Shown in pieces: positions 31,418 to 38,119 of a stretch of 64,000 nt of DNA. The notes under the pieces were generated by a model, which was not told where the DNA came from, did no database searches, and worked only from the letters and a program-made list of their open reading frames with translations. The translations under genes and the position numbers were made by a program. The stretch is from contig NZ_CP134062.1 in assembly GCF_031583025.1 (NCBI RefSeq), positions 5,801,234-5,865,233 on the forward strand. The letters are read 5' to 3'. The DNA comes from Mycobacterium sp. Z3061. Lineage in GTDB: Bacteria; Actinomycetota; Actinomycetes; Mycobacteriales; Mycobacteriaceae. The first letter of the stretch is position 1; every line of letters starts with the position of its first letter.

Positions 31418-33085
31418 GTGACTGATCCCGCTTACACCGTCGGTGATTATCTTCTCGACCGCCTTGCCGAACTCGGGATCTCGGAGATTTTCGGCGTTCC
31501 GGGCGACTACAACCTGGCGTTCCTCGATCACATCGTGACCCACCCGACGCTGCGCTGGGTCGGCAACGCCAACGAACTCAACGCCGGCTATGCCGCCGAC
31601 GGTTACGGGCGTCTTCGCGGATTGTCGGCTGTGGTAACGACTTTCGGTGTCGGTGAGCTTTCGCTCGCCAACGCCATAGCAGGCAGTTACGCCGAACACG
31701 TGCCCGTTGTCCACATCGTCGGCGGGCCGTCCAAAGACGCGCAGGCCACCCGCCGCGCCCTGCACCACTCGCTCGGCGACGGCGACTTCGAGCACTTCCT
31801 CCGGATAAGCCGCGAAATCACCTGCGCTCAAACCAATCTCATGCCGGCGACAGCTTGCCGGGAGATCGACCGGGTGCTGTGCGAGGTCCGGGAACAGAAG
31901 CGCCCCGGCTACATCCTGATGTCCACCGACGTGGCGCGCTTCCCCACCGAACCTCCCGCGAACCCATTGCCCGGCACCAGCGGGGGTACCAGCCCCCGCG
32001 CCCTGGCCATGTTCACCGAGGCAGCCACCAAGCTGATCGGTGACCACCAATTGACCGTGCTCGCCGACCTGTTGGTGCACCGTCTGCAAGCGGTCGACGA
32101 ACTTCAATCCCTGCTGGACGCAGACGTTGTGCCACATGCCACGTTGATGTGGGGCAAGAGCCTGCTCGATGAGAGCTCGCCCACCTTCATGGGTATCTAC
32201 GCGGGCACGGCCAGTACCGAACGGGTCCGCACGGCCGTCGAGGACGCACCCGTACTGGTCACAGCGGGGGTGGTCTTCACCGACATGGTCAGCGGCTTCT
32301 TCAGCCAGCGGATCGACCCGGCTCGAACCATCGACATCGGCCAGTACCAGAGCAGCGTGGCCGATGAGGTGTTCGCGCCACTGGAAATGACCGCCGCGCT
32401 CACCGCGCTGACGGCGATTCTCACCGAACGCGGGATCGAGTCGCCGGCCGTCCCGGCACCGGTGGCCCCGCCGCCGGCGCCCACGCCCGCGCATGACGAG
32501 CCGCTTACCCAACGAATGCTGTGGGACAGGCTCTGTGCCGCACTCACGCCCGGGAACGTGGTGCTGGCCGACCAGGGCACGTCGTTCTACGGGATGGCCG
32601 ACCACGTGCTGCCGCAGGGCGTCACCTTCATCGGCCAACCCCTCTGGGGCTCAATCGGTTACACGTTGCCGGCGGCCTTCGGCGCGGCGGTGGCGCATCC
32701 CGAGCGCAGGACAGTGCTGCTGATCGGCGACGGCGCGGCACAGCTGACCGTGCAGGAACTCGGCTCCTTCTCCCGCGAGGGACTTTCGCCCGTCATCGTG
32801 GTGGTCAACAACGACGGTTACACCGTCGAACGCGCGATTCACGGAGAAACCGCCCCGTACAACGACATCGTCGGCTGGAACTGGACCCAGGTCCCCGCCA
32901 CGCTGGGGGTGGCCAACCACCTCGCGTTCCGGGCGCAGACCTATGGCGAACTCGACGACGCACTCACCGCGGCCGCCGAGAACCAGGACCGCATGGTCTT
33001 CGTCGAGGTGGTGCTGCCGCGGCTCGAAATCCCGCCGCTGCTAGCCCAACTCGTCGGGAACATGCACCCCACGCCCCGCTCATAG
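31418..33085 (+). CDS. pdc: Thiamine-diphosphate-dependent 2-keto-acid decarboxylase (Rv0853c-like)
   Basis: 555 residues from GTG 31418. ThDP-enzyme domains in order: PYR domain with the catalytic Glu53 ([17 protein letters not shown]), a central domain with an alanine/proline linker, and the PP domain with the metal-binding motif [36 protein letters not shown]. The HH pair near 113 ([11 protein letters not shown]) is typical of pyruvate/indolepyruvate decarboxylases. Rv0853c decarboxylates branched and aromatic keto acids. Its stop overlaps the convergent PE-chitinase stop by 6 bases. Confidence 0.92.
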
Positions 33086-35623
33086 CCGGGGCGCGCCTTC
33101 GATCTGCTCGAAGATCTTCGAGAACTGGAACGGCGTTTGCGCGATCCCGCTGCCGTCGACCGCATCGACAGCGCCCAGCGTGCCGGAGATGTCGCGGGGC
33201 AACTCCCACATGGACAGCTCGCCGATGTGGTTCTGCACGGCGAAGGTGGTCAGCTTCTGCGCGTCGGCCAGGGTGAAGATCTCCAGCGGATCGTCGTTGA
33301 TTCCCACCAGCGGCGTCACCCCGAGCATCGACCAGGCCTGCTGGCTCGACATCGACGGATACAACGTCATCAACTGCCCGTGCGTGGCCGTCGCGGCGTC
33401 GATCGCGTACTGGCCCATGCCCGGGTTCCCGGCCTGATCGAACCCGTTGCCGTAGTCCATCGCCATGATGTTCACGTGTGAGATGTTCACGCCGTTGGCC
33501 GTAGCGGTCTGCAGCACGTTCAAGCCCCCACCCTGCCCCGGGACCAAGCCGGTCGGGAGCACCGGAAGGGTGTAGGAGACGGAGACGGGTGTGCCGTTGG
33601 CCGCCATCTGCTGCTGTAGCAGGGCGATGGCCTTCGACTGTGTCGACATTGCCTGCGTGTTGCCCTGCAGCGCGCCCTCGACATCGAAGTCGAGGTTGTA
33701 GATGTGGTAGGTGTTCACCACCGACGCGTACTGCTGCGCCAGTGCGGCCGGGGTCTGACCGCTGACCGCGGACAGGTCGGTGCCGAATGCGCCGCCGAAC
33801 GAGATGGTCCCGCTGATGCCGGCGTTGCGCATGCCGGCGATCTGGTTGTCGATGAAGGCACTCTGCGATCCGCCCGTGACGTCGTACGCCGAGTAGCCAC
33901 CCCAGGCCGGGTGGCCGGCGGGGTCGGCGTTGACGAAGGCGAGCGTGGCGTGTGTGACCCCGTTCTGTGCGGCGGTGGCGAAGTCGTATCCGTTGGGGCC
34001 GGGCCACAGCGTGATGTCGACATAGGGCGAGTACACGCCGGACCCGGTCGCGCTGGTGCCTCCGGTTCCCGTGCCGGTGCCTCCCGTGGACGTGCCGCCG
34101 GTCGACGTGCCGCCCGTGGAGGTGCCACCGGTCGACGTGCCGCCGGTCGCAGTCCCCCCCGTCGAGGTGCCGCCGGTGCCGGCCGTCGGCTGCCCGTTGA
34201 GCAGCAGATTGGTGGGCCCGGCGTAGGCACCGGTCTGCGTCGCCTGGATGCCGACGGTGACCGAGCCACCGGGAGCGATGGTCTGCGTCCAGGACTCCGG
34301 TGTCACGGTGTAGTGCGTACCTGAGTGAGCCAGCTGCCCACTCCAGGCGCCGGTGATGGATTCATCTGCCGGCAGATCGAATTGGAGATTCCAATTCGTC
34401 ACCGGCGCGGTGCCCGTGTTGGTGATCTTGAGGTCGGCCACGAAACCGCTGTCCCAGCGCGACGTCGGCGTGTACGTCGCGGTCAGGCCGCTGCCGCCGG
34501 TACTCGCGCCGGTCCCGGCGCCCCCGGTGGGGCCGGTCCCGATACCGCCGCCGGTCCCCGTCCCCGTCCCACCGCTGGTGCCCGTGCTTCCGGTTCCGGC
34601 GCCGGAGCCGGTCCCGGTGCCACCGGCGCTACCCGTGCTACCGGTTCCACCGGTGGTGCCGGTGCCCGTGCCTCCCGTCCCCGTTCCCGTGCTGCCGGGT
34701 CCGGAACCGGCGCCGGTGTCACCGACCGGGTGTCCATTCACCAGAAGATTGGTGGGAGCCGAGTAGTTCCCGGAATGCGCCCCTTGAAAACCGACGGTGA
34801 CCGAGCTGCCCGGCGCAATGGTGCCGTTATAACTTTCCGGGGTCACCGTGTACTGGGTGCCTGACTGCGAAACTTGTCCGTTCCACAGATTCGTGATGGA
34901 TTCATTTCCCGGCAGGTTGAATTGCAGCTGCCAGTTGCTCATGGGCGCGGTGCCGGTATTGGTGATCGTGTAATGGGCGACGAACCCATTACTCCATTGC
35001 GACGAGGTCGCATACGTGGCCGTCAGGCCGGTACCGGCACCGCCGGGCGTGGTCGTCGCGGCGCCGGTCGCCGCCGGCACCGATGGCGCAGCCGTGCTTC
35101 CCGTCGCGCCGGCCGAAGCGGCCGTACCGCCGGTCGCCGTGGCCGCGCCCGAAGCTGGCCCCGCAGCAGACTGGGCCGGCACCGTCGCGGCGGTAGTTGC
35201 GTCGGCAACACCGGGCCTCAACTGGGCTTTCGCTGAGTCATCGGGCGTCGAAGCAGCCGCAGCGCCACCACTGCCGGCCCGGCCGCTGGCGGCGTTCACC
35301 GCGCCGGCCACCTGCTGACCGGCACTCCGCAGCAGAGCGGCACTGCTCGCCTCGGCGCCGGCGTACGCCCCGGCCGCCGCAGTGAGCCCTTGCACCACCC
35401 GCGCCTGGAACGCCGAGGCCTGAGCGCTGAGCACCTGGTACTCGTGCGCGTGCGAACTGAACAGCCCTGCGATCGCCCCTGAGACCTCATCGGCGGCAGC
35501 CGCCAGTATCTTCGCCGTAGGAATCGCGGCGGCATTATTCACGACACCTAAATTAGAATTGATTTCTGAAATAGAATTTGCAGCCGCTACCAGTGCGTCC
35601 GGCGTTGTGGTCAGATATGACAT
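33080..35623 (-). CDS. PE domain fused to two CBM2 modules and a GH18 chitinase-like domain
   Basis: 847 residues. Start is ATG 35623: GAGGAAG lies 6 bases before it but abuts the alternative ATG 35629. Residues 1-~95 are a PE-like helical hairpin ([18 protein letters not shown].., PD instead of PE) with a YAGAE match to the YxxxE type VII secretion motif. About 198-300 and 379-480 are two CBM2-type modules ([27 protein letters not shown]..NWxLQF), joined by Gly/Thr/Ser linkers. About 530-847 is GH18 with the catalytic DxDxE as DFDVE near 644. Probably secreted (ESX-5-like route) to bind and cut chitin or a related glycan; target is inference. No PPE partner is nearby. Confidence 0.88.
34060..34180 (-). 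repeat. In-gene tandem repeat encoding a Gly-Thr-Ser linker
   Basis: About seven imperfect 15-base units encode GTSTG-type repeats between the second CBM2 and the GH18 domain. A second Gly/Thr/Ser-rich, repeat-like stretch (about 34495-34720) links the CBM2 modules. Such tracts vary in length between strains and act as flexible spacers in modular glycanases. Confidence 0.75.
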
Positions 35624-35760
35624 GCCCATCTTCCTCGATCACGTGTCAATAACTTACTTATAACGAGAACATCACAAGGAGAATTGCGGACGCATCCGGG
35701 CGTGTCAACTATCCGGCGTAAACAGAATTTCTAAATTTTGCGTAAGCCCCGGCAGGGAGA

Positions 35761-36626: not shown

Positions 36627-37247
36627 TTAAGCCGGATTGAACTGCGAAATGAGCCACTTCCCATCGGCTTTCGTCAGCGTGACCAGCACGCTGCTGGACG
36701 TCGTCGTCGGCTCCGGGCGGTCGCGGCTCTGCGTGCTCTGGTTGATGAACAGCAGCACGGTGGCCGATTGAGGATGGAACTCCGTGAGCGCGCCGCGCAA
36801 CACCACGGCAGTCGTCTTCACCGCCTTCTGCTTGGCGGCCGGTGCGACGATCTGCTGGGTGAATTGGTCGTAGTACGAGAGAAAGTCGCCTGTCAGATGA
36901 GATCGTGCGCTGGAGAAATCGCGGTCGAGGGTGTCCGGTGAATACGAGAGGATGGCGATCGTTCCGTCGCTGGCGGCCGCGATGGCCGACTTGGCTGCCT
37001 CGGCATCGACCGCGCGGTCCGGCCGGTAGGAGAACCAGTACAGCGCTCCGAGAGCCGAAAGCGACGTCACGACAACCAACGTCAGTACGGCGACACCGAT
37101 CTTCCCCGACCATTTGGGCCGCTTTGACGACCGCTTCCCGACTCGTCGGGTCCAGCCCCTGAACCGCCCGGTCTGCGGCTCGTCCGACTTCTCGATGGCC
37201 TCCGGCTCTTCGGTGGCCTCAACCGTCGTCGATTTCTTGGGACTCAC
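36627..37247 (-). CDS. Mce-associated membrane protein (short member of pair A)
   Basis: 206 residues from GTG 37247, overlapping the upstream stop as GTGA. Cytoplasmic N-terminus rich in Glu/Lys, one TM helix at about 49-72, then the conserved extracytoplasmic domain: AAKSAIAAASDGTIAILSYSPDTLDRDFSSARSHLTGDFLSYYDQFTQ and the end VTLTKADGKWLISQFNPA. Mce-associated proteins stabilise or assist Mce lipid importers at the membrane. Paralogous to 49729-50253. Confidence 0.8.
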   Translation of the reverse strand: MSPKKSTTVEATEEPEAIEKSDEPQTGRFRGWTRRVGKRSSKRPKWSGKIGVAVLTLVVVTSLSALGALYWFSYRPDRAVDAEAAKSAIAAASDGTIAILSYSPDTLDRDFSSARSHLTGDFLSYYDQFTQQIVAPAAKQKAVKTTAVVLRGALTEFHPQSATVLLFINQSTQSRDRPEPTTTSSSVLVTLTKADGKWLISQFNPA

Positions 37248-38119
37248 GGGACGAACTCGACTTTCGACATTTTGAGCTGTCCACCATCTCGTGTCATGGT
37301 CACGATCAGCCGGTACTTGCGCGGATCCTGTTTGGCGCCAGCCGCGTTGGTGACTTCCGACGTGCTGGCCACCAGCACCACTGCCGAGTTGTCGGTCATC
37401 GAATCCAGATCCACCGCGGCGGCCTGGACAGAACCCTGCGAGACCACCTTCGACTGTTCGACGACGTTGGTGAAATCATCGGCCATCTTGAGGAAGTCGT
37501 CCTTGAACGTTCCCGTCGAGACTTCGACGATGCGCTGCACTCCTTCTTTCGCATGCTCAAAGTCCAGTGACGTCAAGGTCACCACACCCTGCCGCGCCGC
37601 TGCGGCGTACTCGGCCACCTGCTGACGCTCCCGCACCGCGTGCTTGTGCAGTACCGCCATTTCCACGCCGGCACCCACGGCGACGAGCGATACGAGGACG
37701 GCCAGCACGGCGGCAATCGCGGACAATTTCGGGCGGCCCGGCCACCGTCGGCCCGCCTCGGACTCTTCGGTTTCCAGCGAATCCTCGTCAGCCTCCGCGG
37801 AATCGGCGTCGGTCTCGGCTTCCTCTGGTTCCTCCGCGGATTCGGTGTCTTGTGGCTCGTCCTGCGAGGCCTGCTCGGTGACAACCGATTCCGTCGGCGC
37901 GGCTTCGTCTTTCTCATCCTGGGCCGCGGCAGCTTCGCTGATGTCTTCCTCGACAGGCTCTTTGGTTTCGACAAGTTCAGCTTCGCGACGCAACCTGATG
38001 GCCCGGGCGCGGGCACGGGCGGCAGCGGCAAGAGCTTCAGCTTCGGCGGCCTCGGCCTCAGCCTGATCGGCGAGAGACCGGATCTCCGCGGCAGTGTGGG
38101 GTGTGTCGCCCTTTTTCAC
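37244..38119 (-). CDS. Mce-associated membrane protein (long member of pair A)
   Basis: 291 residues from GTG 38119. An Ala/Glu/Arg-rich coiled-coil-like N-terminus (about 10-50), a long acidic region (about 55-125), one TM helix (about 136-158), then the Mce-associated fold ending QLKMSKVEFVP. Paralogue of 49034-49732, whose end reads QLKISKIEFVP. The acidic cytoplasmic region is much longer than in that paralogue. First gene of a minus-strand unit. Confidence 0.8.
   Translation of the reverse strand: MKKGDTPHTAAEIRSLADQAEAEAAEAEALAAAARARARAIRLRREAELVETKEPVEEDISEAAAAQDEKDEAAPTESVVTEQASQDEPQDTESAEEPEEAETDADSAEADEDSLETEESEAGRRWPGRPKLSAIAAVLAVLVSLVAVGAGVEMAVLHKHAVRERQQVAEYAAAARQGVVTLTSLDFEHAKEGVQRIVEVSTGTFKDDFLKMADDFTNVVEQSKVVSQGSVQAAAVDLDSMTDNSAVVLVASTSEVTNAAGAKQDPRKYRLIVTMTRDGGQLKMSKVEFVP

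Follow-up and report, generated by a model that had tools for sequence, protein, structure and literature searches.

A probable exported PE-chitinase with two CBM2 modules in Mycobacterium sp. Z3061

PE proteins that carry enzymatic domains have already been predicted in mycobacteria. In a paper from 2016, chitinase, endoglucanase, beta-1,3-glucanase, and carbohydrate-binding domains are all recorded in PE proteins, and the PE-chitinases among them belong to M. liflandii, M. marinum, M. sp. 012931, M. ulcerans, M. gastri, and M. gordonae (PMC4758615). WP_036414736.1 combines a carbohydrate-binding domain (CBD) with GH18, and ETW25608.1 combines two CBDs with GH12 (PMC4758615). For LipY and the PE_PGRS proteins, experiments have demonstrated that the PE domain is needed for secretion (PMC6819658). 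The gene described here lies in a 64-kb stretch of the Mycobacterium sp. Z3061 genome (positions 5801234-5865233), the whole of which is called the window. It encodes an 847-residue protein (33080..35623, minus strand) with a PE domain, two CBM2 modules, and a GH18 domain, in that order, as identified by the open reading frame, Pfam, and orthologues. Judging from these domains, the product is probably a working exported chitinase. A first reading of the DNA letters (the sequence-only reading) had recognized this arrangement in what it took to be a mycobacterial protein, and it was correct in both. Its suggestion that no PE-chitinase with tandem carbohydrate-binding modules had been described was too strong, since the 2016 list includes PE-chitinases with CBD and GH18 domains. 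The class is thus not new, and tandem CBM2 modules with GH18 are a small variant of it. Among the matches listed by a literature search, no other paper describing PE-chitinases was noticed, nor was any experimental test of one.

The N-terminus was identified as a PE domain, a probable type VII export signal, at residues 4-93 (35345..35614, minus strand). The PF00934 match scores 90 bits (E 1.2e-25) against a cut-off of 22, and a chance resemblance to PE was rejected on this score. The lack of such a match had been named as the result that would speak against a PE domain. A sequence search with this part also returned the solved structures of PE8 (E 1.8e-9) and PE25 (E 1.8e-4). The YxxxE motif is present as YAGAE at residues 87-91 (35351..35365, minus strand), as had been read from the translation. 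In 30 aligned PE-GH18 rows, the window protein included, the first letter of this motif is Y in 25 and F in the other 5, and the last is E in 29 and D in 1. One of the proteins with F is the PE_PGRS-type paralogue in the same genome (L015:886-2454). The proteins of L073, L074, L075, and L078 likewise have F, so that the proposed secretion motif appears to vary naturally at this letter.

Residues 8-9 are Pro-Asp (PD) and not Pro-Glu. The sequence-only reading had noted this letter correctly, and the worry attached to it did not stand. The proline is kept in 29 of the 30 rows and the glutamate in just 17, so the letter is uninformative for PE membership. For the same reason, PD was rejected as a mark of a non-functional PE domain. 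As the sequence-only reading had said, no PPE match was found in the window (122/122 genome candidates scored); the nearest are at genome positions 5761850 and 5928312. A second PE domain was also not found in the window with a profile from the 30 PE rows, searched in six frames at E up to 0.01. Of 233 PE candidates in the genome 150 were scored, which gives a count of at least 150 PE matches, versus 87 PPE matches, 84 of them above the cut-off. The absence of an adjacent PPE gene is therefore unremarkable.

Two CBM2 modules follow the PE domain, and Gly/Thr-rich linkers join the modules of the protein. The first module (34730..35023, minus strand) has an aromatic strip of W, W, and Y, and the second (34190..34483, minus strand) has one of W, W, and W. 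Pfam CBM_2 (PF00553) scores 190.9 bits across the two stretches, in agreement with the two modules first read. CBM2 modules bind cellulose and chitin. The aromatics of the strip were assigned in part after PMC4758615. Trp10 and Trp47 (alignment numbering) are kept in 44/44 modules, and the third aromatic is W in 34 and Y in 10. These and the following conservation counts are restricted to CBM2 matches longer than 86 residues and GH18 matches longer than 251 residues. They include near-copies and are counts of sequences, not independent events.

The GH18 chitinase-like domain occupies the C-terminal part (33083..34042, minus strand) and was identified by Pfam, solved homologues, and Foldseek. 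Its region matches the Streptomyces exochitinase structure 9buf with E 2.2e-52 and the Pyrococcus furiosus chitinase 2dsk with E 3.2e-36. DFDVE at residues 645-649 (33677..33691, minus strand) is the DxDxE acid cluster of GH18, with Glu649 as the predicted catalytic residue from alignment to the P. furiosus chitinase. It aligns with DFDIE, of which the second D is changed to A in 3a4x and the E to A in 3a4w. DxDxE, the D and Y of MDY, and a C-terminal Trp are each kept in 45/45 GH18 domains. The active-site acids are intact, as was first read.

The GH18 domain is also the most conserved part of the protein. Against the copies at L047, L048, and L049 it is 94-100% identical, with a ratio of nonsynonymous to synonymous substitution rates (dN/dS) of 0.05-0.08, and catalysis therefore appears to matter. 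G006, of the same species, has 1 difference in 320 GH18 residues, and G228 is 94% identical in this domain. Pairwise dN/dS over the four domains ranges from 0.05 to 0.37 against L047, L048, and L049. The highest value is for the PE domain against the same-species copy, where dS is only 0.025. For L048 and L049, which represent the nearest other species, it is 0.05-0.25 in all four domains, and its maximum over six frames that are more distant is 0.47 (PE, L062). The PE part changes fastest, with 49% identity to L050 versus 84% for GH18. Linker identity is 93% with L047, 66% with L048, and 69% with L049.

A larger group supplied the 248 genomes of the genus in which relatives were sought with the GH18 part. 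Matches were found in 59 of the 248 (91 match rows). Forty stretches were fetched, chosen around the better matches and a small number of weaker ones. L015 was added, and domains were assigned by phmmer with the window's own domains. A total of 43 GH18-bearing frames were found. There are 11 with PE-CBM2-CBM2-GH18, 10 with PE-GH18, 6 with PE-CBM2-GH18 (L069 is split), and one each with PE-GH18-CBM2-GH18-CBM2-GH18 and PE-CBM2-GH18-CBM2-CBM2-GH18. The others are 4 with CBM2-CBM2-GH18 (L061 being a piece of a split frame), 8 with no domain but GH18, and 2 pieces that have several domains and lack a PE start. PE-GH18 frames occur in at least 21 of the 248 genomes (G105 included, where the frame is split), a lower bound because unfetched matches stayed unclassified. 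The survey that had been proposed thus found the window's exact order in 11 of these 21 genomes, its own and 10 others, and twice in G029. Since the identical order recurs in 10 other genomes, it is not due to chance.

Larger forms were also identified. In G026, one PE protein of 2114 residues combines four GH18 domains with three CBM2 domains (L108:2999-9340), and another of 1520 residues combines two CBM2 domains with three GH18 domains that are nearly identical (L065). Six loci are split or truncated. L059, L061, and L069 have their PE pieces in a different frame or stretch, L071 starts at the edge of a contig, and no PE domain was found for L054 and L072 at E 0.01 within the stretch examined.

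The PE domain does not head every such enzyme. Three genomes, G074, G222, and G158, carry CBM2-CBM2-GH18 frames with an N-terminus that resembles, by eye, a signal peptide. Since these occupy the position of PE, the PE and Sec tags seem to fill the same slot, which suggests that they are interchangeable. G074 has a PE-CBM2-GH18 frame in addition to the Sec-like form, G222 has a second GH18 frame without PE, and G158 has the Sec-like form only. On a GH18 tree the PE label needs 2 changes, versus a mean of 10.7 in shuffled labels (0/500 shuffles as low), and one change is seen in 12% of bootstrap trees. PE and non-PE rows are strongly sorted, and a single fusion and a few fusions are not separable on this tree. 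The tree contains long branches (L086, L095, and L096), leaves out L047 as a near-copy, and places 1 of 4 outgroup rows on the wrong side; 3 of 4 extra distant rows were not caught by the pattern used.

Mycobacterium sp. Z3061 appears to belong to the M. gordonae/paragordonae group. Its genome encodes companion proteins of similar build, as identified by Pfam. These are a PE-CBM2-CBM2-GH12 protein with a 662-residue frame (L011:4350-6335), a PE-CBM2-GH12 protein of 501 residues (L013:4173-5675), and a PE_PGRS-GH18 protein of 523 residues (L015). Five of the six CBM2 matches in the genome sit in PE proteins. The sixth (L012) is in a frame in which no PE domain was seen and a signal-like stretch was noted by eye. 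The M. gordonae DSM 44160 record (L100) contains a relative of the PE_PGRS-type paralogue. Possible export machinery was also found. There are seven EccD matches, and the one at genome position 3464915 is preceded by EccB and EccC and followed by EccE and EccA, amid PE/PPE genes (3447000-3471500). This gene order marks an ESX-5-type locus. In addition, there are six matches above the cut-off to the PecA-family aspartic protease, the best of them at genome position 3795463. In M. marinum, PecA cuts the PE domains off LipY and PE_PGRS proteins at the cell surface, and its cleavage sites are hard to predict (PMC6819658).

These findings make it fairly likely that the gene encodes a modular chitinase that is exported by ESX-5, with a PE tag that is possibly clipped by PecA. 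We infer the export route, clipping, substrate, and ecological role as follows. The PE hairpin would pair with a PPE protein encoded elsewhere in the genome, and EspG5 and the ESX-5 channel would take the pair by means of the YxxxE motif, so that the protein crosses the envelope. A PecA-type protease may then remove the PE part. Through its two CBM2 modules the enzyme would be anchored on crystalline cellulose or chitin, and its GH18 barrel would cleave beta-1,4-linkages of N-acetylglucosamine by substrate-assisted catalysis through Glu649. It would likely help the cell to breach or feed on material that bears chitin or cellulose, such as fungi, arthropod debris, and amoebal cysts in water and soil. 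M. ulcerans has been reported to grow better with chitin and to have a GH18 gene (PMC5928104).

Several results weigh against an ESX-5-exported chitinase. The Pfam GH18 match (PF00704) is barely above its cut-off, with 29.8 bits against 29.6, the same-species copy scores 27.5 bits and falls under it, and a Pfam GH18 search of the genome returned the paralogue only and not the gene in the window. It seems, from the sequence matches to solved chitinases, that the low score reflects the subfamily. The full-length structure model has a mean predicted local distance difference test (pLDDT) of 52.5, with the PE part below 50. The model of the PE part by itself has helices at 8-31 and 36-109, a pLDDT of 58.9, and no match to the Protein Data Bank in Foldseek. 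Because these PE models are weak, the PE assignment rests on sequence. The CBM2 parts of the full-length model have a pLDDT of about 70-86 and match CBM2 structures, and the GH18 part, of mixed confidence, matches 9buf in Foldseek (E 2.3e-19). The export reading also presumes a PPE partner encoded elsewhere in the genome. In the main text of an M. marinum ESX-5 proteome, as far as its extracts go, neither chitin nor hydrolase is mentioned (PMC11395111).

The same protein could act as an adhesin or host-glycan enzyme that is held at the surface. The PE domain and linker would stay in the outer envelope, the CBM2 modules would attach the cell to cellulose, chitin, or the walls of amoebal cysts, and hydrolysis would be secondary or directed at host glycans. 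Both CBM2 modules have kept their aromatic strips, several PE_PGRS proteins are surface-held (PMC11939664), and the close relative M. paragordonae survives killing by amoebae better than M. gordonae and M. marinum (PMC6616192). However, it is GH18 that is the most conserved part, and PecA clips PE_PGRS proteins as well as LipY. Surface retention is thus possible and rather doubtful. A role in the cell's own wall or capsule, with GH18 trimming self glycans and not foreign chitin, is improbable. The GH18 fold is found in endo-beta-N-acetylglucosaminidases too. ESX-5 does affect the integrity of the capsule, by way of PPE10 (PMC4900558). Among solved structures, however, chitinases come closest, and the GH18 relatives are patchy (59/248 genomes), unlike housekeeping wall enzymes. 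The affinity of CBM2 for cellulose and chitin, in line with the titles of solved relatives, speaks for a foreign substrate.

It could also be asked whether the gene is a decaying member of an expanded PE family, and split-frame relatives are known from L061 (same site, G203), L059, and L069. L061, with the same neighbours as the gene in the window and a copy split over several frames, indicates decay in one relative. In Mycobacterium sp. Z3061 and at the same site in G006, G047, and G228 the gene is intact, dN/dS is low in all four domains, and the catalytic residues are kept in every row. A pseudogene was rejected on the intact copies and the dN/dS, and a non-functional gene is highly improbable. 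A family borne on plasmids was rejected as well; 57 plasmid records match, none over more than 80% of the protein, and the best identity is below 60%.

The start of the gene is likely ATG 35623, from which the frame is open to the stop codon at 33080-33082. A putative ribosome-binding site, GAGGAAG, was read six bases upstream of it (35630..35636, minus strand). A second in-frame ATG at 35629 would give an 849-residue frame. It was rejected because the ribosome-binding site directly adjoins it with zero spacing. The neighbouring genes encode a thiamine pyrophosphate (TPP) enzyme, a CoA-transferase III, a protein without a Pfam match, and an AMP-binding enzyme. This order is common to L047, L048, L049, and L061, and the AMP-binding enzyme is without a match in the L047 stretch. 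Two nearby proteins (36627-37244 and 37244-38119, both minus strand) have no Pfam match at 1e-4. They resemble Mce-associated membrane proteins. The named non-mycobacterial relatives from the genome scan are one Aquabacter enzyme (L095) and four Legionella GH18 enzymes (L096-L099), the latter with 36-39% identity. Like Mycobacterium, Legionella is known from amoebae.

Most work on PE proteins has treated them as immune-facing molecules in tubercle bacilli, and only for a few is there a biochemical function that can be tested. With an obvious enzyme and binding modules, a protein of this type could allow ESX-5 export and PE clipping to be assayed simply in an environmental group. It also points to an ecological cause for some of the PE expansion, although the class was already predicted in 2016. 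More tentatively, type VII secretion in environmental slow-growers might be a general exporter of PE-tagged GH18 and GH12 enzymes with CBM2, where homologues carry Sec-like signals. These enzymes would have grown to giant multi-catalytic forms such as the 2114-residue protein, with PecA-type clipping to yield the free glycanase. If so, ESX-5 and the PE expansion would serve saprophytic feeding or the breaching of amoebal cysts and not only host immunity.

Compared with known systems, the protein is closest to the PE-chitinases of PMC4758615, which have the same PE, CBD, and GH18 domains, with DxDxE modelled on 2DSK. In the extracts of that paper one CBD accompanies GH18 and two CBDs accompany GH12, whereas an order of two CBM2 modules with GH18 is not spelled out. 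LipY shares the PE export domain ahead of a secreted hydrolase, but it is a lipase and the window protein is a glycanase. The NCBIfam LipY model matches the N-terminus only (residues 14-112 of the 849-residue frame), with 76.9 bits against a cut-off of 450. Exochitinase 1 of S. venezuelae (9buf) and the P. furiosus chitinase (2dsk) share GH18, and the acid cluster of 2dsk aligns. Their matched chains have no PE part, and the matches cover residues 526-841 and 532-841 only. The mycobacterial CBM2-CBM2-GH18 enzymes (L080-L082) have the same binding and catalytic modules, but they have an N-terminus that by eye resembles a Sec signal in place of the PE domain.

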